Origin: Rubellimicrobium aerolatum
GTDB taxonomy: Bacteria > Pseudomonadota > Alphaproteobacteria > Rhodobacterales > Rhodobacteraceae
Length of the DNA: 64,000 bases
Assembly: GCF_017872975.1 (NCBI RefSeq)
Contig: NZ_JAGGJP010000004.1
Location: forward strand, 186,001-250,000
Direction: 5' to 3'
This document shows positions 19,514-58,317 of this stretch, piece by piece. The notes beneath the pieces are model-generated. The model worked only from the letters and a program-made list of their open reading frames with translations. It was not told the origin of the DNA and did no database searches. The translations under genes and the position numbers were made by a program. Numbering within the stretch: position 1 is the first letter of the stretch; each line of letters starts with the position of its first letter.

Positions 19514-19542
19514 GTTAACGGCGTCCGACAGCAACGAACGGT
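19514..19542 (-). promoter_or_regulatory. 29-bp conserved element upstream of the portal gene
   Basis: Read on the minus strand it is ACCGTTCGTTGCTGTCGGAC, one variable base, then CCGTTAAC. It matches 58289-58317 at 28 of 29 positions. It lies 61 bases upstream of the portal ATG, in the g2-g3 gap, and points toward g3. GTTAAC is a CtrA half-site, but only one half is present here. The role is unknown; an internal promoter or regulator site is the simplest guess. Confidence 0.6.
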
Positions 19543-19564
19543 CAGGCGCGATTCGCGCAACGGG

Positions 19565-21295
19565 TCAGACGAGCCGGAATCGCGGCTCGGCCGGGGGGGC
19601 CGGAGGGGCCAGGATCAGGTCGTGGACGGCCCAGACCAGCGCATCGAGCCGGTCGGGCGAGCCCCGGCCCCGATAGCCGGTCACGGACATCCTAAGCATC
19701 TGATCCTCCAGCTTTCTCAGGTCCGCGCCGTGCAGGTGGCGCACCCGCCCCTGTTCGTAGAGCGCGGCCACCGGCTCGGCGCGAATCACCTTGCCCTCGC
19801 GGGCGTGGACGCAGGTCACGGCGAGGTTCGGGTCGATGCTGCGGAGGATCGTCCCGACCATCGCGCCGCCCTGGTTGACCTCGGCGATGATTCGCGAGGC
19901 GCCGTGGCGGCGCGCGGCCTCGATCACGGCGCGGCCCCACGAATCGGGGCTCGCGCCCTGCACGGTGGCGTCCTCGATGACGTAGGCCATCCAGTCGCCG
20001 CGCGGGCCCTGGGTGGTCGCGCCGACGACGACGATGCCGGTGGCGTCCGACGCCTTGCCCGTCGAGACGGCGGGATCGACCGCCACCACGATCCGGTCGA
20101 GCCGGGGCAGCCAGCGCGCCCGCGCATGGTCGAGCGTCCGGGCCGTCCAGAGCGCGCCGTCGGCGGCGTCGAGCAGCAGCCCCTCCAGCTCCTGCCGGCC
20201 GAGGCGGGTGTTGGCGAAGCGGGCCTGCATCTCCTCCATGAAGCCGCGCGCGAGGAAGGCGCGGTTCGCCGTGGTGGGCGCGTGGGTTTGGGCCGTCCCC
20301 TCGCGGCCCAGGAGGGCGGTCAGGGCGGGGGCGTCGCGCGGCGTGGTGGTGACGACGCAGCGGGGGTCGTCGCCGAGGCGCAGCGCGAACTGGAGCTGGT
20401 CCCAGGCGGCCTCCGCCTTCTTCCACTTGGCCAGCTCGTCGGCCCAGGCGGCGTCGAACTGCGGCCCGCGCAGCGATTCGGGCTCGTGGGCCGAGAAGAT
20501 CTGCGCGACAGCGCCGTTCGGCCATTCGAGCAGCCGCCGGGTGGCGTGCCAGGTGGGCCGCCGGTCGGGCGGGGAGCAGGCCATGAGGCCCGAAGCGCCG
20601 AAGATCATCACCTCGCGCGCCTGGTCCAGCGTCTCGGCCAGCAGCGCCACGCGGCGGGCGCGGCCGGGGTCGCGCGGGCGCGGGCCTTCGACCTGGGCGC
20701 GGACCCATTCGGCCCCGGCCCGCGTCTTGCCGGCGCCGCGCCCGCCGAGGATGACCCAGGTGCGCCAGTCGCCCTGGGGCGGGAGCTGGTGGGGATGCGC
20801 CCAGAACTCGAAGAGGTAGGGGAGGCCCTGCACCTCGTGGTCGGTCAGGGCGGCGAGGGTGGCGCGCACGGTCTCGCGGCCCTGCCGGGCGAGCCAGCGG
20901 GCGGTGAGGGGCTGACGCGGGGGTTCGGTGGGGGCTTCGGTGGGGGCCGGAGCGGGCGCCCGCTCCGGCCCGGTCGCCTCGGGACATTGCGGCGGGGCGC
21001 TTGCAGGTCCGCCGCGCGTCGTCTCGGCCTGCCGGGTCTCCTCCGTCGCTTCGGTGGCGGGGCTGGACCCGGTCGCCTCGGGAGTCGTCGGGGCGCTCGC
21101 GGGCGGCCCGTCGATCCTCCCCTCCTGCCGGGTTTCGGCGGGGGCGAATCGCTCGACCGGGGCGGCGAAGCCGGGACGCGGGGCGTCAGGGGCCATGGCG
21201 GCCCCCTGCCCCTTGGCGGCGTCGGGTCGGCGGGAGGCGAGCCAAGCCTCGTCGGCGCGGTCGCGGAAGCAGGTCGCGGGGGACAGGCGTTGCAT
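19565..21295 (-). CDS. GTA g2, large terminase with long N-terminal extension
   Basis: The DNA-packaging ATPase/nuclease (576 aa). The ATPase domain begins near residue 150; Walker A is GGRGAGKT at about 181-188, and an acidic AWADELAKW segment lies in the Walker B region. The nuclease domain has VAVDPAVSTGKASDATG near 405 and continues to the C-terminus. The first ~135 residues are Pro/Ala/Glu/Thr-rich with repeated PEATG units and look disordered, an unusual extension. The start at 21295 is supported by a GGGAGG site and a 3-base gap after g1. No internal ATG with a good site precedes the ATPase domain. Confidence 0.92.
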   Translation of the reverse strand: MQRLSPATCFRDRADEAWLASRRPDAAKGQGAAMAPDAPRPGFAAPVERFAPAETRQEGRIDGPPASAPTTPEATGSSPATEATEETRQAETTRGGPASAPPQCPEATGPERAPAPAPTEAPTEPPRQPLTARWLARQGRETVRATLAALTDHEVQGLPYLFEFWAHPHQLPPQGDWRTWVILGGRGAGKTRAGAEWVRAQVEGPRPRDPGRARRVALLAETLDQAREVMIFGASGLMACSPPDRRPTWHATRRLLEWPNGAVAQIFSAHEPESLRGPQFDAAWADELAKWKKAEAAWDQLQFALRLGDDPRCVVTTTPRDAPALTALLGREGTAQTHAPTTANRAFLARGFMEEMQARFANTRLGRQELEGLLLDAADGALWTARTLDHARARWLPRLDRIVVAVDPAVSTGKASDATGIVVVGATTQGPRGDWMAYVIEDATVQGASPDSWGRAVIEAARRHGASRIIAEVNQGGAMVGTILRSIDPNLAVTCVHAREGKVIRAEPVAALYEQGRVRHLHGADLRKLEDQMLRMSVTGYRGRGSPDRLDALVWAVHDLILAPPAPPAEPRFRLV

Positions 21296-21298
21296 GGG

Positions 21299-21670
21299 TC
21301 AGCCCTCCCCGCCGCACGTGGAGGGGCGAGCGGCGGCGGCGCTCTCGTCGCCGCAGTCGTGGAGCCGCTGGAGGCGGCAGGCCATCTCCTCGCGGAGCGC
21401 CGCGAAGTCGATCTCGCAGGCGTTGCGAAGGCCGGAGTTCCTCTCGTGCCAGGCGTTGTAGCGGTCCTCGGCCTCGAAGGCGCGCTTGAGGGCGGATTCC
21501 AGCTCGGACTGCTTGAGGCCGATGTCCTTGAGGAGGCGGGGGTCCTGCTCGGCCTCCACGCGGTCGAGCAGCTCCGCGAGCGTGCGCCGCACGGAGCGGA
21601 GGAGTTGCAGCGCGTCGCGGAAGGTCTGCTCGATCTCGGGGCCGGTGAGGGCGATGGGTCTGCGGGTCAT
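21299..21670 (-). CDS. GTA g1, small terminase-like protein
   Basis: A 123-residue mostly helical protein at the promoter-proximal end of the cluster. It begins MTRRPIALTGPEIEQTFRDA and has a coiled-coil-like centre (ELLDRVEAEQDPRLLKDIGL; ESALKRAFEAEDRYNAWHE). GTA g1 is regarded as a divergent small terminase subunit. The C-terminal tail holds CGDESAAAARPSTCGG. It begins the operon; a weak AGGAAAGG lies upstream. Confidence 0.85.
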   Translation of the reverse strand: MTRRPIALTGPEIEQTFRDALQLLRSVRRTLAELLDRVEAEQDPRLLKDIGLKQSELESALKRAFEAEDRYNAWHERNSGLRNACEIDFAALREEMACRLQRLHDCGDESAAAARPSTCGGEG

Positions 21671-21779
21671 GATGCTGTGGCCTTTCCTGCTCTTGTTGTT
21701 GCGCCGGGCGTTTGGGGGGCCGGCACGAGGAGGATCGCGGAAAAGGACTGACGAAGCGTTGGAGCACCGGGCGGTGGGT

Positions 21780-21794
21780 TTAACGCCGGGTTAA
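21780..21794. promoter_or_regulatory. CtrA-type box upstream of the GTA operon
   Basis: TTAACGCCGGGTTAA is an exact TTAA-N7-TTAA, the full CtrA consensus of alphaproteobacteria. It lies 109 bases upstream of the g1 start codon. CtrA is required for GTA expression in R. capsulatus, where direct control is thought to pass through GafA. A full box here suggests CtrA itself may bind near this GTA promoter. Confidence 0.65.
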
Positions 21795-21837
21795 CGGGCC
21801 GGCGGGCGGCGGGGCCGGGGGCGCGGATGGGGAAAGT

Positions 21838-21850
21838 GACGATGCGTCAA
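21838..21850. promoter_or_regulatory. Dyad TGACG-N3-CGTCA upstream of the GTA operon
   Basis: Perfect 5-bp inverted arms TGACG and CGTCA with a 3-base spacer lie 44 bases beyond the CtrA-type box. This is the shape of a dimeric regulator site. On the minus strand it overlaps CTTGACGC, which resembles a -35 element. No clear -10 element is seen. Confidence 0.35.
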
Positions 21851-22220
21851 GAGGTTGGTCGCCGTGCGGGGGCGGGCGCGGGCGGCGGCGGGGGGGCCGG
21901 CGCGGGCGCGCGGGACGGCGGCGCGCAACGCCTCCGGGCCGGGGGCCGGGCGGGCGCGGGCGATGTTTTCGGCCGGGAGGCGGGATGAAGCGGGACGGGG
22001 CGGGGATTCGCCGGGTTGCGGCGGGGCTCCGGCGCGGGATGATTCGCGGGGCGGCGACGGTCCCTGCCGGAATGGCCGGGGCGATGTGCGGCGGGAGGTG
22101 GGGAGCGGGCGGCGGCTCGGCGGGATGGCGCGCGCCGTCTCGCGGCCCTTTCTTCTGACCGCAGATGTCCCGGGGGGGATCGCGCGGCGCGCGATGGCGG
22201 CCTCACGGGCGCGGGCCCGT

Positions 22221-22304
22221 CGGGGGTCTGGTCGGGGGTCTGGTCGGGGGTCTGGTCGGGGGTCTGGTCGGGGGTCTGGTCGGGGGTCTGATCGGGGGTC
22301 TGAT
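22221..22304. repeat. Seven tandem copies of a 12-bp unit
   Basis: The unit CGGGGGTCTGGT repeats seven times head to tail. The last two copies read CGGGGGTCTGAT and a partial eighth follows. It lies 83 bases downstream of the mltG stop. On the plus strand it would read Gly-Leu-Val-Gly repeats, but no credible gene contains it. Probably a variable-number repeat. Confidence 0.95.
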
Positions 22305-22386
22305 CGGGAGGAACCCGCCCTGCGGGGCGCGGGGGAGGGACGGGCGCCTTGCAGGGTTCGGGGTCGGGTCGCCTGGCGCGCGGGCG

Positions 22387-23607
22387 CTAGTTCGAGCCGT
22401 CCGCCGGCTCGGGGTCCGCCGCCTCCGCCTCCTCGGCCTGCCGGGCCTCGATCTCGCGCCAGCGGGCGACGTTGCGCTGGTGCTCCTCGAGGGTGGCGGC
22501 GAAGGCGTGGCCGCCGGTGCCGTCAGCGACGAAGTATCGGTAGTCGGTCGCCGCCGGGTTCACGGCCGCCTGGATCGCCGCGCGGCCGGGGTTGGCGATG
22601 GGGCCGGCGGGGAGGCCGTCCAGGACATAGGTGTTGTAGGCCACCTCGCCGTGGAGCCGCCGCTCCGTGACGCCGTCGATGTCGGACTGGCGGATCGGGC
22701 GGTCGAGGAGCCCCTGCCCCCGCGTGATGCCGTAGATGATCGTCGGGTCGAACTGGAGCCGCATCCCCTGGCGGAGGCGGTTGACGAGGACGGAGGCGAC
22801 GACCGCGCGCTCCTCGGGGATCGCGGTCTCCTTCTCGACGATGGAGGCCAGCGCCAGGGCCTGCTCGGGCGTGTCGAAGGGGAGGTCTTGGGCGCGGGCC
22901 TCCCAGGCTTCGGCGAGCGCGGCGTCCTGGGCGGCCTGCATCCGGGCGAGGAGGTCGGCCACGGAGTCGCCGGGGCGGATCGCGTAGCTGTCGGGGGCGA
23001 GGCGGCCCTCGGGCGGGATGGGGGTGCCGTCGCCGTCGAGCACGTCGATGGCGTCGAGGGACTGGGCGACCTGCCAGCTCGTGACGCCCTCGGCCACGAC
23101 GACGCGGAAGGTGGTGTCGGGCTGGGCCTTGACCTGCTCGTAGGCGGCGGGGACGGGGGCGTCGGAAAGGGGCTCGAACTCGGCGCGTTCGTCGTAGTCC
23201 CCCGTGGCGGGGTCGAGCTCGCGGACCTGGGCCAGCGTGCGGGCGACGCCGATGCGGTAGACGATCTCGGTGCCGCAGGTGGAGGCGCCGTCGCCGGTGA
23301 CGATGTCGGTGATCTCCTGCATCGACGCCGCCTCGGGGATCAGGAAGCTGCCCTGCTTGAGGTCGGCGGTGCGGTCGGCGTAGTCGGCGCCGAGGCGGAG
23401 GATGGTCGGGTGGGCGACGGCGCCCTTCTGGCCGAGATCCTCGGACACCTCGCGGAAGTTGGCGCCGGGGGCGACGCGGAGGCAGATCGCCTGCGCGAGC
23501 GGGCCGGGGGCGGAATACTGCGAGACGCCCCAGGTGACGAGGCCGGCGAGCAGGAACAGCGCCACCGTCAGGAAGGTCAGCGCGTTGGCGGCGACGTGGC
23601 GCCACAT
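22387..23607 (-). CDS. mltG: Endolytic murein transglycosylase MltG
   Basis: The inner-membrane enzyme that cuts nascent peptidoglycan and is thought to end glycan strand synthesis (406 aa). One membrane helix is at residues about 9-31 (LTFLTVALFLLAGLVTWGV). The YceG periplasmic domain has the catalytic Glu in LASIVEKET, near residue 255, with VLVNRLRQGMRLQFDPT, YNTYVLDGLPAGPIANPG and YRYFVADGTGGHAFA. The acidic C-terminal tail is Glu/Ala-rich. It is 55 bases downstream of fabF in the common fabF-mltG order. Confidence 0.95.
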   Translation of the reverse strand: MWRHVAANALTFLTVALFLLAGLVTWGVSQYSAPGPLAQAICLRVAPGANFREVSEDLGQKGAVAHPTILRLGADYADRTADLKQGSFLIPEAASMQEITDIVTGDGASTCGTEIVYRIGVARTLAQVRELDPATGDYDERAEFEPLSDAPVPAAYEQVKAQPDTTFRVVVAEGVTSWQVAQSLDAIDVLDGDGTPIPPEGRLAPDSYAIRPGDSVADLLARMQAAQDAALAEAWEARAQDLPFDTPEQALALASIVEKETAIPEERAVVASVLVNRLRQGMRLQFDPTIIYGITRGQGLLDRPIRQSDIDGVTERRLHGEVAYNTYVLDGLPAGPIANPGRAAIQAAVNPAATDYRYFVADGTGGHAFAATLEEHQRNVARWREIEARQAEEAEAADPEPADGSN

Positions 23608-23662
23608 CAGGCGGGAGTCCGGGCGAAGGGGCGCGGCGGGCGGCGGGCCGACGCGGCGCCCG

Positions 23663-24922
23663 TCACGGCGCGGCCCCGAGGACGAGGCAGGCGTTGGTGC
23701 CGCCGAAGCCGAAGCTGTTGTTCACCGCGATCCTGACCTCGCGGCGGCGGGCCTGGTTGGGGGCGAGGTCCACGGGCGTCTCGACCGCCGGGGTGTCGAG
23801 GTTGATCGTCGGCGGGCAGATCTGGTCCCGCAGGGCGAGGATGCAGAAGATCGACTCGATCGCTCCGGCCGCGCCGAGGAGGTGGCCGGTCATCGACTTG
23901 GTGGAGGACATGGTGACCGACGCGGCGGCGTCGCCCATGAGACGCTCGACCGCCGCCAGCTCGATCACGTCGGCCATGGTGCTGGTGCCGTGGGCGTTGA
24001 TGTAGTCGATGGCGGCGGGCTGGAGGCCGGCGTCGGCCAGCGCCATGCGCATGGCGCGCTCCGCGCCCTCGCCGTCCTCGTTGGGGGCGGTGATGTGGTA
24101 GGCGTCGCCGGACAGGCCGTAGCCCAGGATCTCGGCGTAGATCCTGGCGCCGCGGGCGCGGGCGTGCTCCAGCTCCTCCAGCACCACCATGCCGGCCCCC
24201 TCGCCCATCACGAAGCCGTCGCGGTCGGCGTCGTAGGGGCGGCTGGCCTTGGTCGGGTCGGCCCCGTGCCGGGTGGAGAGCGCCTTGCAGGCGTTGAAGC
24301 CGGCCATGCCGATCTCGCAGATGGCGGCCTCGGCCCCGCCCGCCACCATGACGTCGGCGTTGCCATACTTGATGAGGCGGGCGGCGTCGCCCAGCGCGTG
24401 CGCGCCGGTGGAGCAGGCGGTGACGACGGCGTGGTTGGGGCCCTTGAAGCCATACTTGATGGAGACCTGGCCCGAGACGAGGTTGATGAGCGAGCCGGGG
24501 ATGAAGAAGGGCGAGACGCGGCGCGGGCCCTTCTCCCTGAGGAGGAGGGTCGTGGCCTCGATGGACTTCAGGCCGCCGATGCCGGAGCCGATCAGGACGC
24601 CGGTGCGGGCGCGCTCCTCCTCCGTGGCGGGCACCCAGCCCGAATCCTCGACCGCCTGCTGGGCGGCGGCGATGCCGTAGAGGATGAAGTCGTCGATCTT
24701 GCGCTGGTCCTTGGGCTCCAGGTAGCGGTCGGCGTCGAAGGTGCCGTCGGTGCCGTCGCCGCGCCGGACCTCGCAGGCGTAGTCGGTCGCGAGGGCGGAG
24801 GCGTCGAAGGCCTGGATGGTGCGCGCGCCGGACTGGCCGGCGAGAAGCCGGGTCCAGGTCTCCTCCACCCCGTCGGCGAGGGGGGTCACGAGGCCGAGGC
24901 CCGTCACGACGACACGACGCAT
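23663..24922 (-). CDS. fabF: 3-oxoacyl-ACP synthase II
   Basis: Condenses malonyl-ACP with acyl-ACP in fatty acid elongation (419 aa). It starts MRRVVVTGLGLVTPL. The catalytic Cys is in TACSTGAHALGD (about C169), and the two His are in NAHGTSTMAD and SMTGHLLGAAG, with NNSFGFGGTNA near the end. The start at 24922 follows GGGAGG. Because of the duplication in the upstream gene, an open frame runs without a stop from 28012 through fabF; the strong ribosome-binding site and exact family length argue that fabF is translated on its own. Confidence 0.96.
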   Translation of the reverse strand: MRRVVVTGLGLVTPLADGVEETWTRLLAGQSGARTIQAFDASALATDYACEVRRGDGTDGTFDADRYLEPKDQRKIDDFILYGIAAAQQAVEDSGWVPATEEERARTGVLIGSGIGGLKSIEATTLLLREKGPRRVSPFFIPGSLINLVSGQVSIKYGFKGPNHAVVTACSTGAHALGDAARLIKYGNADVMVAGGAEAAICEIGMAGFNACKALSTRHGADPTKASRPYDADRDGFVMGEGAGMVVLEELEHARARGARIYAEILGYGLSGDAYHITAPNEDGEGAERAMRMALADAGLQPAAIDYINAHGTSTMADVIELAAVERLMGDAAASVTMSSTKSMTGHLLGAAGAIESIFCILALRDQICPPTINLDTPAVETPVDLAPNQARRREVRIAVNNSFGFGGTNACLVLGAAP

Positions 24923-25056
24923 CCGAAATCCTCCCGTTGGGGGTTGCGCGGGGCCGGTCATACAGAGGGGGGGCGGGCTCCGCAACCGGGGCCGCCCCCC
25001 GCCGGGGAGGCGGCCCGCGGGGCGCGAGGGCGTCAGGCGGGGCGTCGGGCCGGGCG

Positions 25057-28012
25057 TCAGGCGGGGCGGCGGGCGGGGCGGCGGCCCATCGGCGGCAGGC
25101 CGGTGCGGTCGAGCCGGTCGAAGGCGGCCTTGACGGCGAGGGCCAGCGGGAAGGACAGGGCCAGCGCGACGGCGAGGCGCGCGGCCTCGGGCAGCGGCAG
25201 GCGGGCGACGCCGACGATGACGATGACGTGCAGGAGGTAGACGAAGAGCGTGGCCCCGGCGAGGCGCTGGAGGATCAGGCCCAGGGTGCGCGGCACCGAC
25301 AGGCGCGGGTTCCAGAGCAGGAGCACGATCGCGGCGCCGAGGACGAGGCGCGGGCCGAGCGCCGGGTTGAGCGCGGCGATGGCGGCCCAGGCGACGGCCC
25401 CGGCGAGGAGGGTCGCGGTTCGTTCCCGGCGGGTCGCGGCGGCCTGGAGCATCCAGCCGAGCATCAGGACCGGCAGGCATTCGAGGATGTCGCGGGGCGG
25501 ATGGTGCGGCACCGGCAGCCGCGCGAGCGCGTCGGGGCCGAAGGCCGTGCAGGAGGTAGACGAAGAGCGTGGCCCCGGCGAGGCGCTGGAGGATCAGGCC
25601 CAGGGTGCGCGGCACCGACAGGCGCGGGTTCCAGAGCAGGAGCACGATCGCGGCGCCGAGGACGAGGCGCGGGCCGAGCGCCGGGTTGAGCGCGGCGATG
25701 GCGGCCCAGGCGACGGCCCCGGCGAGGAGGGTCGCGGTTCGTTCCCGGCGGGTCGCGGCGGCCTGGAGCATCCAGCCGAGCATCAGGACCGGCAGGCATT
25801 CGAGGATGTCGCGGGGCGGGTGGTGCGGCACCGGCAGCCGCGCGAGCGCGTCGGGGCCGAAGGCCAGGAGCGTGCCGCCGAGCAGCGCCAGCGAGGCCGC
25901 GAGGCCGCCCGAGGCGACCGCCCAGGGCCGCGCGGCGAGGCCACGCCGCGCGGCGGGAACCTGGGCGGCGAGCGCCACGACGAGGACGAGCTGGACGTAG
26001 AGGCTGACGAACCAGTAGGGCTCGAGCGCCGAGGACTCGGTCCAGATGTGGTAGTTGCCGAGGAGGAGCGCGTAGCTGCCCGGCACGCCGCCGCCCTTGA
26101 GCAGGCCGTAGAGCACGGTCAGCCCGGCGTAGAGCGGCACGATCGGGAACAGCATCCGCAGGGCGAAGCGGCCCGCCTGCCCCGTCGCCAGCAGGTCGGT
26201 CTGGAAGCGGCCGAGTCCGAAGCCCATGAGCAGGATCAGCGCCCAGGTGCCGCCGTAGAGCGGAAAGGTGGTGGCGTGCTGCCCGATGACCAGGGTGATC
26301 GCCAGGAGCCGCAGCGGCACGTCGATGCCGAGCCGGGACGCGACCGGGCGGGCGGCGGGCCGGCGCGTGGCGAGGGATTCGAGCTCGGCCAGCGTCATGC
26401 GCTCCCAGCCTTCGGGGGTGGTCCCGAGATGCTCCTCCAGGGTCATCTGCATCTGGAGGTAGCTGAGCGAGTCGCCGCCCAGCGACACGAAGCTGTCGCC
26501 GGGCCCCACCTCGGGGGCGCGGGTGGCCTGACGCAGCGCCTCGCGCAGGTCGAGGCGGCCGCGCCGGGCGCTGGCCTCCTCGTCGCGGGCCACCACGGCG
26601 GCGGCGCGGGCGGCGAGCGCGCGCTGGTCCACCTTGCCCGAGGGCAGGAGCGGCACCCCGCCCAGCGGCGCGGCGTGGATGCGCGCCCCGGGCAGGTCGT
26701 AGGCGCGGGCCACCGCCTCGCGCACGGCCTCGCCCCGCGCGGGGTCGTCGTGGAGGAGCACGAGGCGGTCGCCCGCCGCCATGGCGCGGGCGGCGAGGCC
26801 CTGCCCGGCCAGCATGGATTCGATGCGGTCGAGGCCGAGCCGGAGGCCGTAGAGCTTGACGAAGCGCTTGGAGCGGCCGGTGATGCGGAAGAGGCCCTCG
26901 GGCGTGATCTCGGCGATGTCGCCGGTGCGGAGCTCGACGACCTCGGGCCCGCGCGCGAGATCGGCGCGGGCCGTGGCGTAGCCCATCATCACGTTGGGGC
27001 CGTCGTAGACCAGCTCCCCCTCGCGGCCGGGGGTCGCGATCTCGCCGCCGTCCTCGGCCAGCAGGCGGAGGCGGCCGCCGGGGATGGCGCGGCCGATGGT
27101 GTCGCAGGCCTCGGGCAGCGTCTCGGGCGGGACATAGGAGATGCGCGGGGCGGCCTCGGTCTGGCCATACATCAGCACGAGGTCCCAGCCCTGGGCCTGG
27201 CCCTTGGCGTGGGCGCGGCGCACGATCTCGGGCGAGAGGCGGCCGCCGGCCTGGGTCACGTAGCGCAGCGACGGCAGGTCGAGCGCGGCGAAGCCGGCGG
27301 CGTCCAGCACCTCGAACTGGTGGGGGACGAGGGCGAGGCTGGTGACGCGGGCGGCGCGGGCCCGGTCCCAGAACGCGGGCGCGGTGACGGAATCGGGGAT
27401 GAGCGCCAGCGACGCGCCGGCGGCGAGGTAGGAATGGAGGACCGAGAGCCCGTAGGAGTAGAACAGCGGCAGGGTGGTGGCGGCGCGGTCGTCCGTCCCG
27501 AGGCCGAGGTATTCGGCGATGGCGCGGGCGTTGGAGTCGATGTTGCGGCCCGAGAGCCGCACGAGCTTGGGGTCGCCGGTGCTGCCGGAGGTCGACAGGA
27601 GGAGCCGCAGGTCGGGGTGGGGCGCGGGCCCGTCGGCCGGGCCGGGCGCGGCGGCGCGGAGGTCGAGCCCGCCGTCCCGGGGCGCGATGGCGAGGTCGGG
27701 CCGCCAGGCGCGGGCGATGGCGCTCTCCGGGCCGAGCTGGCCGGGCTCCAGCACCAGGACGGGCAGGCCGGCGCGGAGCGCGCCGAGATAGGCGGCGATG
27801 GCGGGGACGGAGGTCTCGAACTCCAGCGCGACCAGGGCCGAGGGGCCGGGCGCGGCGACGCTCAGGCGCTCGGACCAGACGTCGGCCTGGGCGGCGAGCT
27901 CGCCGTAGGTGACGGCGCGCCCGGCGGGGTCGATCAGCGCCGGCCGGTCGTCGCGACCGAGGGGGAAGGTCCAGAAGGGAGCGGAAGCAAGGCTCGGGTC
28001 CATGCGCGTCAC
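25057..28012 (-). pseudogene. NRPS-like adenylation/carrier/membrane-acyltransferase gene, frame broken by a 319-bp tandem duplication
   Basis: The intact part encodes three modules. The first is an AMP-forming adenylation domain (about 1-480), with STSGSTGDPKLVRLS near 140, MYGQTEAAPR near 280 and LRTGDIAEITPEGLFRITGR near 355. The second is a carrier domain (about 490-555) with the phosphopantetheine Ser in SLGGDSLSYLQ. The third is a polytopic acyltransferase-3-like domain from about 570. Bases 25228-25546 are repeated at 25547-25865, and the 319-base shift destroys the frame inside the last membrane region. Without one copy the frame would run to a stop at 25057 and end RPARRPA. Natural substrates are unknown. 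GTG 28012 follows AAGGA; ATG 28003 is the alternative. A perfect CtrA-type box lies 90 bases upstream. Confidence 0.8.
25228..25865. repeat. 319-bp direct tandem duplication
   Basis: Copy one is 25228-25546 and copy two 25547-25865. The one difference I found is A at 25501 against G at 25820. The copies abut directly with almost no homology at the junction. 319 is not a multiple of three, so the duplication shifts the reading frame of the host gene. Confidence 0.93.
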
Positions 28013-28117: not shown

Positions 28118-28174
28118 TCGGGCATAGGGCGGAACCATGGCATGCTTTGGGCGGCAAGGGCGGCCGCAACGAAA

Positions 28175-34414: not shown

Positions 34415-34524
34415 AACGTCCCACGGAGGGCGGGCGAGCCCTCCCCCCTCTGGCTGGCGCGGCTCCTAGCAGAGGGGGACGGGGCGCGCGAGGGGGAAAA
34501 TCGCGGGCTTGCGGCGGGGCCGGA

Positions 34525-34578
34525 GGGGGGCGCCGCCCCCCGCTTCGCTCCCCCCGGGATATTTGGAGCCAAAGAAGG
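34525..34578 (+). repeat. Dispersed extragenic repeat, copy 1
   Basis: A 54-bp element: a GGGGGGCGCCGCCCCCC palindrome, then GCTTCGC, a C-run, and GGGATATTTGGAGCCAAAG. It is closely matched by 52511-52564 with a handful of changes. It lies between the nnr stop and the tRNA gene. Confidence 0.85.
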
Positions 34579-34608
34579 ACGGGGGAGCGGGTCCGGCCCT
34601 GGGGCGCC

Positions 34609-50908: not shown

Positions 50909-51050
50909 CGCGCCCGCGCTCCACCCGCTCCATCTCGGCCCGGAGCCGCCGCCAGCGCCGCCAACTGAGGCCTGCAAGGCCCCCCAGCAGCGCCAGCGTC
51001 ACCGCGTAGGAGGCCAGCACCTCGACGGCGTAGGTCCCGAGGTCCGGCAT
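50901..51050 (-). CDS. ccmD: Haem exporter protein CcmD
   Basis: A 49-residue membrane protein, MPDLGTYAVEVLASYAVTLA, with one helix and a basic C-terminus (SWRRWRRLRAEMERVERG). It helps release holo-CcmE from the CcmABC complex. It shares one base with the ccmC stop (TGATG) and overlaps ccmG by 8 bases. Confidence 0.92.
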   Translation of the reverse strand: MPDLGTYAVEVLASYAVTLALLGGLAGLSWRRWRRLRAEMERVERGRDG

Positions 51051-51784
51051 CACGCCACCGCCCTCTGCGCCTGCCGCTCCAGCGCGCGGAGGCGACGGAC
51101 GCGGATCTCGGTCCCCGTCCGCATCAGCACAAGTGCCAGGAACAGCAGGATGAAACCCGCGATGCAGACGAGGAGCGGCAGCCAGTAGACATCCGCGATG
51201 TTCTCCTCGGCGTCCATCGACAGGGTGGCGCCCTGGTGCAGCCCCTGGTTCCAGAAGTTGACCGCGTAGCGCGACAGGATCGCGAAGACCGACCCCACGA
51301 GGCAGAGCACGGATGTCAGGTCCGCCGCCTGATCCGGGTCGGCGATCGCCTCCCACAGCGCGATGTAGCCCAGGTAGAACAGGCCCAGGATCAGGAAGGA
51401 CGTGAGGCGCGGGTCCCAGGCCCACCAGGTTCCCCACATCGGCTGCCCCCAGACCGCCCCGGTGAAGAGCGCGATCAGCGTCATCGTCAGTCCCACGGGC
51501 GCGGCGGCCTTGGCGGCGAGCGCGCTCACGTGGTGGCGGCGGATCAGCCAGACCAGCGAGGCGACCAGCATCATCGCCCAGGCGTTGATCGCCATCATCG
51601 CCGAGGGGACGTGGACGAAGATGATCTTGACCGAGGAGCCGAACTTGTCGGCCTCGGGCGTGAGGAAGAAGCCCCAGGCGAGGCCGCCCAGGATGCAGAC
51701 GCCCGCGCCGCCGAAGGCCCAGGGGATCACCGGGGTCGTCGTGGCGATGAACTTCTTGGGGTTGGCGTATTCCCAGATCGACAT
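51050..51784 (-). CDS. ccmC: Haem exporter protein CcmC
   Basis: The haem-handling membrane subunit that transfers haem to CcmE (244 aa, six helices). The tryptophan-rich WWD motif is MWGTWWAWDPRLTS, and histidines lie in FVHVPSAMMA and RRHHVSAL. It lies 43 bases downstream of ccmB on the minus strand. Confidence 0.97.
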   Translation of the reverse strand: MSIWEYANPKKFIATTTPVIPWAFGGAGVCILGGLAWGFFLTPEADKFGSSVKIIFVHVPSAMMAINAWAMMLVASLVWLIRRHHVSALAAKAAAPVGLTMTLIALFTGAVWGQPMWGTWWAWDPRLTSFLILGLFYLGYIALWEAIADPDQAADLTSVLCLVGSVFAILSRYAVNFWNQGLHQGATLSMDAEENIADVYWLPLLVCIAGFILLFLALVLMRTGTEIRVRRLRALERQAQRAVA

Positions 51785-51827
51785 GGGCGCTGAATAAGCC
51801 CTGCGCCCGTCCGCCTCAATGCCCCAT

Positions 51828-52484
51828 TCAGCGCAGGTTGATGCGAAGCACCGCCCCTGCGGCGAAGGGCAGCAGGGCGAGGCTCCCCGCCGTGATGCCC
51901 GAAAGCATGAGGAGGGGCGTGGTGGCGGCCAGCCCCTCGGCCCCCCGCCGCGCGGCCTCGGCCCCGAAGATCAGCGTCGGCACGTAAAGCGGCAGCACGA
52001 GGAGCGACAGCAGCAGCCCGCCGCGCCGCAGCCCCACCGTCAGCGCCGCGCCGAAGGTGCCGATCACCGACAGCGCCGGCGTTCCCAAGGCCAGCGTCAG
52101 CACCAGCCAGCCATAGGCGGGCCCTTGCAGGTTCAGGAGCACCCCCAGGGGCGCGGCGGCGAGCGTCAGCGGCAGCCCCGTCGTCAGCCAATGCGCCAGC
52201 GCCTTGGCCAGCGCCACGCCCTCCAGCGGCAGCGGCGAGGTGGCGATCAGCGGCAAGGCCCCGTCCTCGTGGTCGAGCGCGAACTGGCGGTCCAGCGACA
52301 GCAGCGTGGCAAGCAGCGCCGCCACCCAGAGGATGCCGGGGCCGATCCGCGCCAGGATCGCCGATTCGGGGCCGACGCCGAAGGGGATCAGCACGATGAC
52401 GATCAGGAAGAAGGCGAGCGACAGGCCGAAGCCGCCCCCGGCGCGCACGGCGAGGCGGAGGTCGCGGAGGAGCAGGGCCTTCAT
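51828..52484 (-). CDS. ccmB: Haem exporter protein CcmB
   Basis: The permease-type subunit paired with CcmA (218 aa, about six helices). It begins MKALLLRDLRLAVRAGGGFG, with FALDHEDGALPLIATSPLPLEG as a family hallmark. The 85-base gap to ccmA holds a dispersed repeat (52511-52564). Confidence 0.96.
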   Translation of the reverse strand: MKALLLRDLRLAVRAGGGFGLSLAFFLIVIVLIPFGVGPESAILARIGPGILWVAALLATLLSLDRQFALDHEDGALPLIATSPLPLEGVALAKALAHWLTTGLPLTLAAAPLGVLLNLQGPAYGWLVLTLALGTPALSVIGTFGAALTVGLRRGGLLLSLLVLPLYVPTLIFGAEAARRGAEGLAATTPLLMLSGITAGSLALLPFAAGAVLRINLR

Positions 52485-52510
52485 GCGTCGCGCCCGCCGG
52501 CCGGGGTCGA

Positions 52511-52564
52511 GGGGGGCGCTGCCCCCCGCTTCGCCCCCCCCGGGATACTTGAGGCCAAAGAAGG
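52511..52564 (+). repeat. Dispersed extragenic repeat, copy 2
   Basis: A 54-bp element matching 34525-34578: GC palindrome, GCTTCGC, a C-run, then GGGATACTTGAGGCCAAAG. It sits between ccmA and ccmB inside the ccm gene run. Confidence 0.85.
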
Positions 52565-52569
52565 CCGCA

Positions 52570-53205
52570 TCACAGGAAGGCCGCGTCGGTGCCCTGGTGG
52601 GCGGCGGCGCGCGGGTCGGCGCGGAAGGGGCCGAGGTCGAGAACCGGGGAGTCGAGACCCAGCGGCACGTGCGTCGCGATCACCGCGATCCCGCCCGCCG
52701 CGAGGTGCCGGTCGCGCAGCCAGTCCGCGAATCGTGCCACGGACGCGACGTCGAGCGAGACCGTCGGCTCGTCGAGGAGAAGGATCGTCCGTCCGATCAC
52801 CCCGAGCCGGGCGAGGCCCAGCCGCCGCGACTGCCCCGCCGACAGCGTGCCGGCCGGGCGGTCGCGCAGGCTCCGCAGGTCGAAGTCGTCCAGGATCGCC
52901 GCGTCGAAGCCCCGCCCGTAGAGGTCGGCCCAGAAGCGCAGGTTCTCCGTGACCGTCAGCGCGGCCTTGATGCCGTCGGCGTGGCTGGCGAAGGCCACGC
53001 TCTCGGGCGGCGCCTCCACCCGGCCGGCGAACGGCGGCGCGAGGCCCGCGAGCACTCGCAGGAGCGTGGTCTTGCCCGCCCCGTTCGGCCCGCGCAGGAT
53101 CAGCGCCTCGCCGGGCGCGACCGCGAAGCTCAGGCCCGTCAGCACCGGCACCCCGCCGCGCGCGACCGCCAGCCCCTCGACCCGCAGGCCCGTCCTCCCG
53201 GTCAC
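52570..53205 (-). CDS. ccmA: Haem exporter ATP-binding protein CcmA
   Basis: The ABC ATPase of the CcmAB complex (211 aa). Walker A is RGPNGAGKTTLL, the signature is TLSAGQSRRLGLARL, and Walker B is TILLLDEPTVSLD. A GTG at 53205 gives the compact GTGA overlap with the Mth938-like gene; the frame could also start at GTG 53214. Confidence 0.95.
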   Translation of the reverse strand: MTGRTGLRVEGLAVARGGVPVLTGLSFAVAPGEALILRGPNGAGKTTLLRVLAGLAPPFAGRVEAPPESVAFASHADGIKAALTVTENLRFWADLYGRGFDAAILDDFDLRSLRDRPAGTLSAGQSRRLGLARLGVIGRTILLLDEPTVSLDVASVARFADWLRDRHLAAGGIAVIATHVPLGLDSPVLDLGPFRADPRAAAHQGTDAAFL

Positions 53206-53558
53206 ACCGGCCACAGCGCGATGCCGACGCGCCGCCCCTCGGACAGGAGCACGTTGTAGGTGCGGCAGGCGGCAGGCGTCGGCATCGCCTCGACGCCGAT
53301 CCCGGCGTCGTCGGTCACGGCGCGGAAGCCCGTGGGCAGGTAGGCCATGTCCGCCCCGGTGCCCACGAAGAGCACGTCGAGCCGCGCGCCCTCGGCCAGG
53401 ATCAGGCCCGTGTCCTCCCAGCCGCCCCAGGCGCGCACGCCCGAATCGGGCAGGATCAGGAGCGGCCCGGCGATCACCCGCCCGCCGACGCGGAAGAAGC
53501 CCGGCCCGTAGCTGTCCACCGGCAGGGCGTCGGGGAAGCGCATCTCCTCGATCGGCAT
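53202..53558 (-). CDS. Mth938-like domain protein (DUF498)
   Basis: A 118-residue single-domain protein with the Mth938/NDUFAF3-like fold. The motifs FFRVGGRVIAGPLLILPDSG, DVLFVGTGADMAYLP and ACRTYNVLLSEGRRVGIALWPV are typical. The eukaryotic relative is a complex I assembly factor; bacterial function is uncertain. It sits between secF and ccmA, a common neighbourhood in this order. Confidence 0.9.
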   Translation of the reverse strand: MPIEEMRFPDALPVDSYGPGFFRVGGRVIAGPLLILPDSGVRAWGGWEDTGLILAEGARLDVLFVGTGADMAYLPTGFRAVTDDAGIGVEAMPTPAACRTYNVLLSEGRRVGIALWPV

Positions 53559-53562
53559 CGGA

Positions 53563-54534
53563 TCAGGCGTCGATGTCGGCGAACTGGTTCGCCGAGGCCT
53601 TCTTGGCCTTGTCGCCGCGCGGCAGGCCGATCCAGAGCACGATGTTCTTGGCCACGTAGACCGACGAATAGGTGCCGATGAACACGCCCATGGTCATCGC
53701 GAAGATGAACCCCCGGATCACGTCGCCGCCGAAGATCAGCAGCGGGATCAGCGCCAGCAGCGTCGTCCCGGCGGTCACCAGGGTGCGCGACAGCGTCTCG
53801 TTCACCGACAGGTTCATCACGTCCCGGAGCGGCATCGTCTTGTACTTCAGCAGGTTCTCCCGCAGCCGGTCGAAGACCACCACCGTGTCGTTGACCGAAT
53901 AGCCCAGGATCGTCAGCAGCGCCGCCACGATGGTCAGGTCGAATCGAAGCTGGAACAGCGAGAAGACCCCCGCCGTCACGATCACGTCGTGCAGCAGCGC
54001 GACGATGGTCCCCAGCGAATACTGCCACTCGAACCGCATCCAGATATAGAGCCCGATGCCCAGGCAGGCGCCCAGGATGGACAGGAACGCCGTCCGCACC
54101 AGCTCGCCCGAGACCTTGGGGCCGACCGATTCGACGGACGGGAAGGCGATGGCCGGGTCGATGGCCCGCAGCGCCTCCTCGACCACGGCGATCGTCTCGG
54201 GCGAGACGGCCTCCTGCCCCTCCTGCGCGGCGATGCGGACCTGCGCCACGTGCTGGTCGGCGCGGAAGGTCGGGTCGAAGACCTCGGTGATGGTCACGTC
54301 GCCCAGGCCCAGCCCGCTCAGGGCGTCGCGGTAGGCCGCCACGTCCACCGCCTGCGTCGATTCGGTGCGGATGGTGGTTCCGCCCTTGAAGTCGATGCCG
54401 AAGTTGAAGCCCAGCGTCGCCATGCTCAGCAGCGACCCCAGCACCAGCAGCGCCGAGAACCCCAGCGTGATCCACTGGAGGCGGAAGAAGTCGATGTTGG
54501 TCTTTTCCGGCGCGAGCCGCAGTCGCCATGCCAT
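53563..54534 (-). CDS. secF: Protein translocase subunit SecF
   Basis: An inner-membrane subunit that uses the proton motive force to finish Sec export (323 aa, six helices). The N-terminal FNFGIDFKGGTTIRTES and later VNDTVVVFDRLRENL with LTAGTTLLALIPLLIFGG-type helices are the SecF hallmarks. It lies 10 bases after secD. Confidence 0.97.
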   Translation of the reverse strand: MAWRLRLAPEKTNIDFFRLQWITLGFSALLVLGSLLSMATLGFNFGIDFKGGTTIRTESTQAVDVAAYRDALSGLGLGDVTITEVFDPTFRADQHVAQVRIAAQEGQEAVSPETIAVVEEALRAIDPAIAFPSVESVGPKVSGELVRTAFLSILGACLGIGLYIWMRFEWQYSLGTIVALLHDVIVTAGVFSLFQLRFDLTIVAALLTILGYSVNDTVVVFDRLRENLLKYKTMPLRDVMNLSVNETLSRTLVTAGTTLLALIPLLIFGGDVIRGFIFAMTMGVFIGTYSSVYVAKNIVLWIGLPRGDKAKKASANQFADIDA

Positions 54535-54544
54535 TGGGCCTACC

Positions 54545-56209
54545 TCACACGACGATGGTCTTGGGCCGGGTCCGGGCGAACCACAGCGCGATCAGCACGC
54601 GCGACACGTAGACGCCCGTGACCAGGGTGGTCAGCACGCCCAGGGCGAGCGTGACGGCGAAGCCGCGCACCGTGCCGGTGCCGACGAAGAACATGATGGC
54701 GGCGATGATGAAGGTCGTCACGTTGGCGTCGAGGATGGCCGAGAAGGCCTTGCCGAACCCCTCCTCCACCGCCCGGATGGGCGAGGCGCCGCGCCGGATC
54801 TCCTCGCGCATCCGCTCGTAGATCAGCACGTTGGCGTCCACCGCCTGCCCCATGGTCAGCACGATCCCGGCGATCCCCGGCAGCGTCAGCGTCGCGCCCA
54901 GCAGCGACAGCGCGGCGAGGATCATCACGATGTTGATGGCCAGCGCCACGCAGGCGATGGCCCCGAAGAAGCCGTAGGACGCCACCATGAACAGCACCAC
55001 CAGCACCGCCGCCGCGTAGGCGGCCGTCTGGCCCGCCCGGATCGAATCGGCGCCCAGCTCGGGCCCGATGGTCCGCTCCTCCAGGAAGGTCAGCTCGGCC
55101 GGCAGCGCCCCGGCGCGCAGCAGCACCGCCAGCTCGGTCGATTCCTCGGGGGTGAACTGCCCGGTGATGATGCCTTGCCCGCCGGGAATCGCGCTCTGGA
55201 TGACGGGGGCCGAGATCACCTGGTCGTCGAGCACGATGGCGAAGGGCTCGCCGATATGGGCGGCGGTGTATTCGCCGAAGGCACGCGCCCCCTGCGCGTC
55301 GAAGCGGAAGCTGACGGCGGGCCGGCCGTTCTGGTCGAAGGTCGGCTGCGCGTCGGTCAGGTCCTCGCCCGTCACCACCGCCGCGCGGTCGAGCACGTAG
55401 AGCACGCCGGGCTCGTCCACCGACGGCACCAGCACGTTGCCCGCGCCCGGGTTCGCCTCGGCGTCCGAGGTCACCTGCACCACCGGCTGGAAGGTGAGCT
55501 GCGCCGTCGTGCCGATGATGTCCTTGACCTCCTGCGCGGACCCCACGCCCGGCACCTGCACGAGGATACGGTCGGCGCCCTGCCGCAGAATCGTCGGCTC
55601 GCGCGTGCCGACCTCGTCGATGCGGCGGCGGACGATCTCCAGGGCCTGCTGCACGGTGCGGTCGTCCGTCGCCGCCCGCTCGGCCTCGGACAGCCGCACG
55701 GTCAGGATGTCGTTCTGCGCGCTGGCCTCGATGTCCGAGGCCGCGCCGCCCGCCAGCGTCGCCACCGGCTGCGCCAGCCCGCGCACGATCTCCAGCGCCC
55801 GCGCCGCGCCCGATGGCTCCGAGATGCGGATGCGGAGCTCGGACGGGTCGCCCCCCTCCTCGCGCGTCACGAATCCCACCGTGTCCCGCTCGGCCGCCAG
55901 CACGTCGCGGATCGTGGGCCAGAGCGAATCCATGCGGCTCGCGTAGACGTCGGCGACCTGCACCTCGGCCAGCAGATGCGCGCCGCCCCGCAGGTCGAGC
56001 CCGAGGTTGATGAGCCCCGAGGGCAGCCAGGCCGGCCATTGCGCCGCCTGCGCCTCCAGCTCGTCCGAGGCCAGGCCCGCCTCGATCGAGGCGCGGGCGT
56101 CGTTGGCCTGCTCGACTTGGGAATAGAACAGGTTCGGCAGCGCCAGCAGGATCGCCGCGACGGTGGCCGCCGCGACGAACAGCCTCTGCCAGAGGGGAAC
56201 GAGGATCAT
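54545..56209 (-). CDS. secD: Protein translocase subunit SecD
   Basis: The partner of SecF (554 aa). It has one N-terminal helix, the periplasmic P1 domain (LGLDLRGGAHLLAEV, LVQVPGVGSAQEVKDIIG) and a C-terminal six-helix domain with VDANVLIYERMREE. It lies 1 base after yajC, in the order yajC-secD-secF. Confidence 0.97.
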   Translation of the reverse strand: MILVPLWQRLFVAAATVAAILLALPNLFYSQVEQANDARASIEAGLASDELEAQAAQWPAWLPSGLINLGLDLRGGAHLLAEVQVADVYASRMDSLWPTIRDVLAAERDTVGFVTREEGGDPSELRIRISEPSGAARALEIVRGLAQPVATLAGGAASDIEASAQNDILTVRLSEAERAATDDRTVQQALEIVRRRIDEVGTREPTILRQGADRILVQVPGVGSAQEVKDIIGTTAQLTFQPVVQVTSDAEANPGAGNVLVPSVDEPGVLYVLDRAAVVTGEDLTDAQPTFDQNGRPAVSFRFDAQGARAFGEYTAAHIGEPFAIVLDDQVISAPVIQSAIPGGQGIITGQFTPEESTELAVLLRAGALPAELTFLEERTIGPELGADSIRAGQTAAYAAAVLVVLFMVASYGFFGAIACVALAINIVMILAALSLLGATLTLPGIAGIVLTMGQAVDANVLIYERMREEIRRGASPIRAVEEGFGKAFSAILDANVTTFIIAAIMFFVGTGTVRGFAVTLALGVLTTLVTGVYVSRVLIALWFARTRPKTIVV

Positions 56210-56210
56210 G

Positions 56211-56495
56211 TCAGGCCTTGGCCGGCTCGGTCTTGGAGACGACGCTCTGGATGGTGGAACGGACGACGCGGACGTTGACGCCGGGGGCGATCTCGACCTC
56301 GACCTCGTTCTCGCCGTCCTTGACCTTGGTGACGCGGCCGACGATGCCGCCCGAGGTCACCACCTGGTCGCCCCGGCGCAGCGCCGAGACCAGGGCCTGA
56401 TGGTCCTTGAGCTTCTTCTGCTGGGGCCGGATCAGCAGGAAGTACATGATGAGGAAGACGAGCAGCAGCGGGACGAGGGAGGTGATGCCTTCCAT
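56211..56495 (-). CDS. yajC: Preprotein translocase subunit YajC
   Basis: A 94-residue single-helix membrane protein of the SecDF-YajC complex. The helix LVPLLLVFLIMYFLLIRPQQKK is followed by GDQVVTSGGIVGRVTKV. The ATG at 56495 is preceded by AAAGGAC. The longer frame to 57188 runs antisense to serS and is not coding. Confidence 0.96.
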   Translation of the reverse strand: MEGITSLVPLLLVFLIMYFLLIRPQQKKLKDHQALVSALRRGDQVVTSGGIVGRVTKVKDGENEVEVEIAPGVNVRVVRSTIQSVVSKTEPAKA

Positions 56496-56799
56496 GGCGG
56501 TCCTTTGGATTGCGGACGGGAGGGAGGCCCCCCGAAAAGTCGCGGCAACATAGGGGCGGCCCCCCCGCTTGTCCACCGCACCACGGCGTGAGGCCCCCGG
56601 GAGCGGCTGCGGCCCTTCCGCGCGGCCCATCCGTGGCACCGGTGGCGCGGGGCCGGTGCGGGGCCGGTGCGCCGAAGCGCACCCTACGGAACACATGGGA
56701 CACGTCGTCGGGTGCGCCGTCCGCGCACCACCTTCCCCCCCGCTCCACCTTCCGGCATAGGCACCTCGTCCACCCGATCTCAACCCCAGGGGCACGCCC
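56496..56799. other. Divergent 304-bp gap between yajC and serS
   Basis: GC-rich DNA without a gene. It holds the CTACGG-tailed palindrome at 56666-56689 and must contain promoters for both directions, but no convincing -35/-10 pair was found. Confidence 0.6.
56666..56689. repeat. Extragenic palindrome with CTACGG tail, copy 2
   Basis: Stem GGTGCGC, loop CGAA, stem GCGCACC, then CTACGG. The same layout as 40582-40605, but the stem sequence differs. Confidence 0.7.
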
Positions 56800-58092
56800 A
56801 TGCACGACATCCGCGCCATCCGAGAGAACCCGGCCGCCTTCGACGCCGCGCTGTCCCGGCGCGGCCTGTCCCCGGTCGCCCCCGCGATCCTCGCCCTCGA
56901 CGAATCTCGCCGCGCCTGCATCCTCGCCGCCGAGACGGCGCAGGCCGACCAGAACCGCGCCTCCAGGGAGGTCGGGGCCGCCAAGGCGCGCGGCGACGAC
57001 GCGGAGTTCGAGCGTCTCCGCGCCCTGGTCGCCGACAAGAAGGCCGAGGTCGCCCGCCTGACCGAGGAGGCCAAGCTCCGCGACGCCGAGCTGTTCGACG
57101 TGCTGATCGGCCTCCCCAACCTTCCCGCCGACGACGTGCCCGACGGCCAGGACGAATCCGCCAACGTCGAGATCCGCCGCTGGGGCACCCCGCGCGAGTT
57201 CGGCTTCCAGCCGCTGGAGCACTACGACATCCCCGCCGCCCGCGTCGGCATGGACTTCGCCACGGCGGGCAAGCTGTCCGGCACCCGCTTCGTCGTGCTC
57301 ACCGGCGCGATGGCCCGCCTCCAGCGCGCGCTCGCCCAGTTCATGCTCGACCTGCACGTGGAGGAGCACGGGCTTTCCGAGGCCTGGACCCCCGTCCTCG
57401 TCAAGCCCGAGATGATGATGGGCACCGGCCAGCTCCCCAAGTTCGGCGAGGATTCCTACCAGACCACCAACGGCTGGTGGCTGGTGCCGACCGCCGAGGT
57501 GACGCTCACCAACTTCGTCAACGGCGACGTGCTGGACGACGCCACCCTGCCCCGCCGCCACGTCGCCCACACCCAATGCTTCCGCTCCGAGGCGGGAAGC
57601 GCGGGCCGCGACACCTCCGGGATGCTCCGCCAGCACCAGTTCGAGAAGGTGGAGATGGTGTCGATCACCCGCCCCGAGGACTCGGACGAGGAGCACCGCG
57701 CCATGACCCGCCACGCCGAGACGGTGCTCGAACGCCTGGGCCTCCCCTACCGCACGGTCGTCCTCTGCGCCGGCGACATGGGCGCGGGCGCGCGCCGGAC
57801 GCACGATCTGGAGGTCTGGCTCCCCGGCCAGGGCACCTATCGCGAGATCAGCAGCGTCTCCACCTGCGGCGACTTCCAGGCCCGGCGCATGAACGCCCGC
57901 TACAAGCCCGCCGACGGCGGCAAGCCCCGCTTCGTCCACACGCTGAACGGCTCCGGCCTCGCCGTGGGCCGGACGCTGATCGCCGTGCTGGAGAACGGCC
58001 AGGAGGAGGACGGCTCGGTGACGCTGCCGGAGGTGTTGCGTCCCTACCTGCGCGGCGCGACGCGGATCACCCCCGAAGGCACCTTCGCCTGA
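56800..58092 (+). CDS. serS: Seryl-tRNA synthetase
   Basis: Charges tRNA-Ser (430 aa). It begins [18 protein letters not shown]. An N-terminal coiled coil binds tRNA (about 25-105). The class II catalytic motifs are [22 protein letters not shown] with EKVEMVSIT (motif 2) and [17 protein letters not shown] (motif 3). CAGGGG precedes the ATG. Confidence 0.97.
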
Positions 58093-58269
58093 CCCCGCGC
58101 GCGTCCTTGGGACGGGCTCCGGCCCGTCGCCCCCACCCCGCCGGTCGGGGGAATCTCACGCCTTTCCTGGCACATAGGGCCGGGCTCACCCTGCCACGGC
58201 CCCACGGGAACCGGCAATGACCACAGGCTGGGGCTCCACCCCACCGAGCGCCCGCGGCCCGACGGTTCG

Positions 58270-58284
58270 TTAATCCGTCCTTAA
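58270..58284. promoter_or_regulatory. CtrA-type box between serS and der
   Basis: TTAATCCGTCCTTAA is an exact TTAA-N7-TTAA. It lies between two convergent genes with no obvious target, 4 bases before the 29-bp element at 58289. Confidence 0.6.
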
Positions 58285-58288
58285 GCCC

Positions 58289-58317
58289 ACCGTTCGTTGC
58301 TGTCGGACCCCGTTAAC
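58289..58317 (+). promoter_or_regulatory. 29-bp conserved element, second copy
   Basis: ACCGTTCGTTGCTGTCGGAC, one base, CCGTTAAC. It matches 19514-19542 at 28 of 29 positions. It points right, toward an ATG-ATG at 58341 that opens only a frame antisense to der. The region 58093-58382 otherwise holds no gene. Confidence 0.6.

Follow-up and report, generated by a model that had tools for sequence, protein, structure and literature searches.

A 29-bp element occurs almost unchanged between genes g2 and g3 of a gene transfer agent (GTA) cluster and again between serS and der, in a 64,000-nt stretch of the Rubellimicrobium aerolatum genome (contig positions 186001–250000; hereafter the window, numbered from its first letter). 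GTAs are virus-like particles that shuttle DNA. An initial annotation of the window offered two readings: either the copies are a regulator or promoter site that ties an internal promoter of the GTA cluster to a dispersed regulon, or they belong to a dispersed repeat. Our analysis suggests, with a probability of about 0.72, that promoters of the GTA regulon have the 29-mer as their core and that the activator GafA most likely binds there, together with CtrA at a half-site.

Copies of the element in the window

Exactly two matches to the 29-mer were found in the window, at 19514–19542 (minus strand) and 58289–58317 (plus strand), agreeing at 28 of 29 bases with one variable base. The number expected by chance is zero, as determined from 100 dinucleotide shuffles, none of which gave a match. 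Both copies are intergenic: the portal open reading frame (ORF) runs from 19453 and the terminase ORF ends at 19565, while serS and der end at 58092 and 58383. Near-identity beyond chance and location outside genes, as initially described, were therefore borne out, and so was a TTAA-N7-TTAA box, which we take to be of the CtrA type, 4 bases from the 58-kb copy. A proposed relative in the pdhA–pdhB gap proved real but marginal, ranking fourth in the window by position weight matrix (PWM) score (contig position 189007–189051; best reversed control −38.3). The features concerned are as follows.

19490–19569, minus strand: 80-bp promoter block 5′ of the GTA portal gene g3 (core 19514–19539; contains the 29-mer 19514–19542; PWM 66.7)
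58262–58341, plus strand: 80-bp promoter block between the convergent serS and der (core 58292–58317; PWM 45.2)
58270–58284, plus strand: TTAA-N7-TTAA box, presumed CtrA-type, 4 bases ahead of the 58-kb element
21723–21802, minus strand: weaker palindromic copy 5′ of GTA g1 (PWM −8.6; best reversed control −38.3)
21780–21794, minus strand: TTAA-N7-TTAA box, presumed CtrA-type, 4 bases ahead of the g1 palindrome
3007–3051, plus strand: marginal relative in the pdhA–pdhB gap, with an inverted GCAAC module beside CCCGTTGCTG (profile E = 0.035; PWM −29.3)
18212–19453, minus strand: GTA g3, portal (Pfam PF04860, 3e-91)
19565–21295, minus strand: GTA g2, large terminase (Pfam PF03237, 3.7e-24; PF17289, 1.8e-18)
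21299–21670, minus strand: GTA g1 candidate, ORF 5′ of terL, small terminase by position only

The copy 5′ of g1 adds a third to those described initially. Its palindrome, CACCGCCCGGTG at 21765–21776, lies 95–106 bp before the listed g1 start, and the same palindromic form is kept at g1 of R. roseum. It has the third-best PWM score in the window, above the reversed control, and is missing from the genome profile matches described below. The g1 candidate ORF itself had neither a Pfam nor a PHROG match.

The 29-mer is part of a directional, probable promoter block

The assembly (3.76 Mb, 59 contigs, 95.6% complete) was scanned for the 29-mer, and 40 copies were found at up to 3 mismatches (18 plus, 22 minus), with none in the reversed control. 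A sequence profile built from 45 copies gave at least 108 matches at E ≤ 1 and at least 98 at E ≤ 1e-3; the match list may be incomplete, because only 150 of 4006 first-look candidates were scored. Further counts are based on the 92 distinct sites that scored above 12 with a 58-bp PWM. Outside this set lie five weak loci with scores of 12 or less (L270, L273, L278, L281 and L283) and identical duplicates.

Alignment of 30 fetched copies showed that the 29-mer belongs to a directional promoter block of about 80 bp. Its order is gGGGGnGTTGCGCGAA, about 10 bp, CTGAcC, the core GTTCGTTGCTGTCGGAC-N-SCGTTAAC, about 7 bp, and the −10-like TGSSATnCT. The core holds a fixed register to the −10-like block, which starts about 33 bp past the core start; with a slightly wider pattern, TGSSA was found at +31 to +42 in 61 of the 92 sites. 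The −10-like sequences are TGGCAAATT at about 19498–19506 in the g3 block and TGCGACACT at about 58325–58333 in the 58-kb block. The latter points at the 3′ end of der and has no downstream gene of its own. Within the core the most invariant bases are those in CGTTGCTGTC, and TTAAC is near-invariant too.

The upstream module varied. Only GTTGCGCG was present at 57 of the 92 sites, only an inverted GCAAC at 26, both at 4 and none at 3. A full TTAA-N7-TTAA box served as the upstream module at 2 sites, and also in the g1 copy; the others carry one TTAA half-site, so that the class as a whole does not have the two half-sites 7 bp apart of a CtrA box. Where full, the box stands four bases before the palindrome position (the 58-kb copy, site L257, and g1 of both R. 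aerolatum and R. roseum). The CtrA motif of R. capsulatus is given as a TTAAC-N6 type in the available text of PMC6363796.

Other promoter and site types were considered. A sigma-54 promoter was rejected: TGGCA...GC resembles a −24/−12 element, but many copies read TGCGA and the spacing varies. LexA, lux box, parS and DnaA-box readings were considered and set aside. At many sites (e.g. L004, L006 and L023) the words GAATC/GATTC seem frequent within the block and immediately 5′ of it; GANTC is the CcrM site.

Genes downstream of the sites

Genes were called with a codon-usage gene caller built for this analysis. None of the 92 sites overlapped a called gene. Relative to the element, the flanking genes were oriented ++ at 35 sites, +− at 24, −− at 23 and −+ at 9, with one contig end; the downstream gene was on the element's strand at 44 sites and not at 48. 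A co-directional gene within 130 nt was found at 29 sites, leaving 63 without one. These 29 include the GTA portal (Pfam 3e-91), a DUF6456 GafA-like gene (3.5e-52), a GH108 endolysin (8e-25) and a DUF2793 gene (7.6e-27), which we take to encode the GTA head spike. A PDB search with the DUF2793 protein returned one entry, which was uninformative. The protein behind site L269 is beta-helix-like by eye; it was considered as a GTA tail spike and rejected, having no Pfam, PHROG or PDB match. Other genes behind these sites resemble, by eye, alaS, argS, hisS, obgE, sucA, glutamate dehydrogenase and formate dehydrogenase, with an ileS-like gene following the element via a small ORF.

A family of small proteins starting MPLDHA lies behind the promoter at L011, L234, L235 and L236, and the called frame at L234 continues into an IleRS-like protein. 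At nine sites (L001, L004, L005, L013, L016, L022, L024, L025 and L028) the promoter is followed by a Shine-Dalgarno-like stretch and then a start codon, which is TTG in L022; the frames opened there are stop-free for more than 470 codons and run antisense into the convergent neighbour. Such long frames at convergent sites were not accepted as genes and, being antisense to the neighbour, were excluded from gene counts.

The element is conserved at GTA genes of other Rhodobacterales

By portal protein, the nearest named relatives are R. roseum (83%), R. mesophilum (82%) and R. rubrum (81%). The R. roseum element reads GTTCGGTGCTGTCAGAnnnCGTTAAC (12 copies at up to 3 mismatches), that is, the palindrome ACCGTTCGGT, while another genome of the genus, G001, holds a single 29-mer match, upstream of portal. 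At up to 3 mismatches the 29-mer had no match in 5 of 8 genus genomes, and the long form is near genus-specific, with one hit in 1 of 197 genomes from other genera. The core common to other Rhodobacterales at portal and g1 is ACCGnnCGGT, often CACCGYRCGGTG, with palindromes at several g1 loci; at g3, TTAA follows 14 bp past CGGT.

Counts of CG[GT]T-N14-TTAA 5′ of portal supported this arrangement. The portal set comprised 80 loci, of which 2 were too short and 78 were tested. With up to one mismatch the pattern was found at 46 loci (shuffled mean 5.4, max 12), and exactly at 29 (shuffled mean 0.22, max 2). Comparison of the g2–g3 gap in relatives, as proposed in the initial annotation, thus showed the copy to be conserved.

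Unlinked lysis and head-spike genes both carry the element in R. aerolatum, and the placement recurs elsewhere. At −78 to −62 of the best GH108 gene per genome, with start codons set by an analysis-specific rule, the pattern (up to one mismatch) was found in 10 of 11 genomes, against a mean of 0.07 and a maximum of 2 of 11 in 300 rounds of shuffling. R. rubrum was the sole miss, with a near form present; neither of two second GH108 genes had the pattern. For DUF2793, 11 of 13 loci were used (L313 and L314 left out). The N14-TTAA form was present at −71 to −73 at four of them (P. spongiae, R. roseum, R. mesophilum and, with 1 mismatch, S. thalassica), G001, R. rubrum, A. marinus and R. cerasinus had only a palindrome-like sequence, and the other three had no element.

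A portal search of phages and a GafA search of plasmids gave only matches below 60% identity, none labelled Rhodobacter among the matches listed.

GafA and CtrA as candidate regulators

A DUF6456 search of the genome gave one strong hit and one weak hit below cut-off. The strong protein has an N-terminal helix-turn-helix-like stretch (Pfam match below cut-off) and was taken as GafA. The element lies upstream of gafA in R. aerolatum, R. roseum and R. mesophilum, as autoregulation would require, and the weaker copy at 21723–21802 stands where a promoter of the structural cluster would be expected. In the available parts of the R. capsulatus papers, GafA binds a fragment 76–125 bp before g1 (PMC6363796), its own promoter, and 50–100 bp before tspA (PMC9638019; PMC13420450). 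The g1 palindrome of R. aerolatum falls inside the span corresponding to that g1 fragment.

From these features we propose that the palindrome ACCGnnCGGT, often degenerate in R. aerolatum (ACCGTTCGTT), would be recognised by an activator, which is most likely GafA, a protein that forms a dimer in R. capsulatus, and that CtrA would most likely act at the TTAA(C) half-site 14 bp past CGGT. With the −10-like TGSSATnCT about 33 bp past the core start, the palindrome would lie near −47. Further upstream comes an interchangeable module that occurs in three versions: GTTGCGCGAA, GCAAC in inverted orientation, and the complete TTAA-N7-TTAA box. The block would presumably fire during GTA production from a predicted start site. 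In R. aerolatum the class has expanded to some 100 sites, and three multicopy families of non-coding transcription units are among them.

Several observations weigh against this proposal. The binding and expression it supposes are read from sequence. Most sites in the genome lie away from known GTA genes, some of them at alaS, argS, hisS, obgE and sucA. The pattern is missing from 32 of the 78 portal loci, only 4 of 11 DUF2793 loci have the N14-TTAA form, the g1 copy has no TTAA at the N14 position, and a clear copy is absent at 9 of 11 gafA loci examined in relatives. In a blind scan of 61 family genomes, exact ACCGNNCGGT-N14-TTAA gave 16 hits versus 26 in the reversed control, and overall enrichment is therefore absent. 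The palindrome alone was not enriched over the reversed control in 9 of 10 named genomes, R. roseum being the exception (54 versus 22). A palindrome regulon extending across the family was considered and dropped, as neither the 61-genome scan nor the named-genome counts supported it. On the supporting side, five of the 16 blind-scan hits lie directly 5′ of GTA genes (3 endolysins, 2 portals).

One rival reading is that the promoters answer to a general regulator unrelated to GTAs, or to the housekeeping polymerase, and that GTA genes have joined this class. Such a class could account for some 100 sites in one genome, several aminoacyl-tRNA synthetase genes, obgE and sucA among them, and for a long form that turned up in only one of 197 genomes outside the genus. 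We consider it unlikely, however: outside the genus the conserved placement is at GTA genes (endolysin 10/11, portal 46/78, blind hits 5/16), gafA itself bears the element in three Rubellimicrobium genomes, and no wide regulon was found outside the genus in the 61-genome scan or the named genomes.

Many sites precede multicopy non-coding units

The downstream bodies of the 92 sites fell into families F1 (22), F2 (8) and F3 (6) and a family of four with a small ORF; two further bodies form a pair, and the other 50 stand alone. F1, with 25 matches by DNA search, extends about 300–335 nt from the inferred start to a conserved terminator-like end (22/22). Its RNAalifold structure has 60 pairs, 16 of them changed on both sides, and 96.2% of cells pair; none of 500 shuffles reached any of five measures. 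This covariation is support rather than proof, because the structure came from the same alignment and the shuffles ignore relatedness. In an Rfam search with 15 loci, the downstream bodies were unmatched; only tRNA exceeded the cut-off, beside two sub-threshold chance hits.

A core, CCCAGCCGCCGCGCGTCG, was found at 8 of the 92 sites (F2) and at 6 of the 13 sites fetched from R. roseum or G001, and also upstream of 2 of the 92. Together with N3-ACGCGC it occurred in 6 of 8 genus genomes, R. aerolatum included, and in 0 of 53 others (reversed control 0). Of 54 places with this non-coding RNA core, 30 had loci and entered the analysis. CG[GT]TG-N13-TTAAC (up to one mismatch) lay within 420 nt upstream at 21 of these 30 (6/6 in R. 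aerolatum; 15/24 elsewhere, two of the 24 holding only 62 nt upstream), and at 0 of 30 in the same length downstream.

At least two flanking proteins were shared with an R. aerolatum site by 21 of 37 other-species loci, a count made without a random-locus control and with at least one pair of loci overlapping. In six syntenic pairs (two one-sided) the bodies could not be aligned between species beyond pieces of at most 24 nt, and copies within R. aerolatum had median identities of 74–92% over 316–355 nt. Two histories would fit: the multicopy RNA genes may occupy old positions and evolve in concert, or the same positions may have been refilled repeatedly. At R. roseum L318 and L330, the two sides match flanks of different R. 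aerolatum sites (L031 and L260; L030 and L052), the pattern expected if copies of the element had recombined and swapped their flanks.

Another rival reading makes the element a dispersed mobile repeat, of the miniature inverted-repeat transposable element or repetitive extragenic palindrome kind, with a promoter in its end. Multicopy bodies up to 100% identical, homology blocks that often begin at the promoter, and 92 sites in both orientations, of which 63 lack a co-directional gene close by, are what such a repeat would leave. We nevertheless judge this improbable. No site overlaps a called gene, the element is conserved across the order at GTA genes at a fixed distance to the start codon, and the blocks end at promoter and terminator-like end around a covarying body. 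Synteny at 21 of 37 other-species loci (with the limit on that count given above) also strains it, and the sites do not behave as unrelated insertions. The initial annotation held that many copies in random positions and orientations would mark a repeat. Copies are indeed many and in both orientations, but they are non-random, avoiding called genes and keeping the −10 register. Its regulator or promoter alternative stands, with the g2–g3 copy conserved and the element at gafA, endolysin, DUF2793 and, in weaker form, g1; its repeat alternative is improbable for the element and holds partly for the downstream bodies, because 48 of 92 sites have no strand-matched downstream gene and many drive repeated non-coding bodies.

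An essentially CtrA site, its remaining conservation due to common descent, is highly improbable: the near-invariant TTAAC, the full boxes at the 58-kb and g1 copies and the half-sites at late R. capsulatus GTA (RcGTA) promoters (available text of PMC9638019) agree with it, but just 2 of the 92 sites have the full upstream box, conservation is strongest in CGTTGCTGTC and, when the whole order is compared, in the palindrome, and the g1 copy retains the palindrome while losing the downstream TTAA.

If GafA does act at the proposed promoter, it may tentatively be seen as a global switch in Rubellimicrobium, turning on, during GTA production, about 100 units that include a genus-wide superfamily of structured RNAs at old positions, evolving in concert within each species and perhaps homogenised by GTA recombination. 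The RNAs could then be a functional component of the GTA programme that has so far gone unnoticed. Neither element nor RNAs were found described in the open-access literature searched.

Comparison with known systems

The closest parallel is the set of GafA-controlled RcGTA promoters, which serve the same genes (the structural cluster from g1, gafA, lysis and head spike) in the available parts of PMC6363796, PMC9638019 and PMC13420450. The position before g1 fits the GafA-bound fragment there, and late genes have a CtrA half-site. No GafA consensus was found in those parts, which also do not describe an internal g3 promoter or some 100 further sites with non-coding RNA bodies.

The Caulobacter GTA promoter (GafY/GafZ, IHF) likewise has an upstream activator element plus elements near −35 and −10, and GafY and GafZ resemble two halves of GafA, according to the available text of PMC11150451. 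It differs in sequence and position, with ACTATG, and GCGCCCG-CTGGCGC between −35 and −10. The same text describes the exact GafA elements as unmapped at nucleotide resolution. At that level of detail the element would supply a candidate for the operator of the GTA regulon throughout Rhodobacterales, making regulon members predictable from sequence and GafA recognition directly testable.

GOLLD and the phi29 packaging RNA are phage-associated structured RNAs expressed with virus-like particle genes, as the R. aerolatum RNAs would be. The latter differ in forming families, with many copies on the chromosome. That one genome has a GTA-type promoter some 100 times over, in many cases apparently driving covarying multicopy RNAs, raises anew the question of what role GTAs play in such a cell.

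Other repeats in the window

A 300-nt direct duplication, 100% identical, occupies 25227–25526 and 25546–25845 (319 nt start to start), and a 12-nt tandem repeat, GTCGGGGGTCTG, lies 5′ of the GTA cluster, at 22207–22320. A 70-nt repeat (86%) at 34512–34581 and 52498–52567 ends in GGGATAnTTGnnGCCAAAGAAGG; some of the non-coding RNA copies (e.g. at sites L008 and L019) are followed by a stretch resembling it in reverse orientation.

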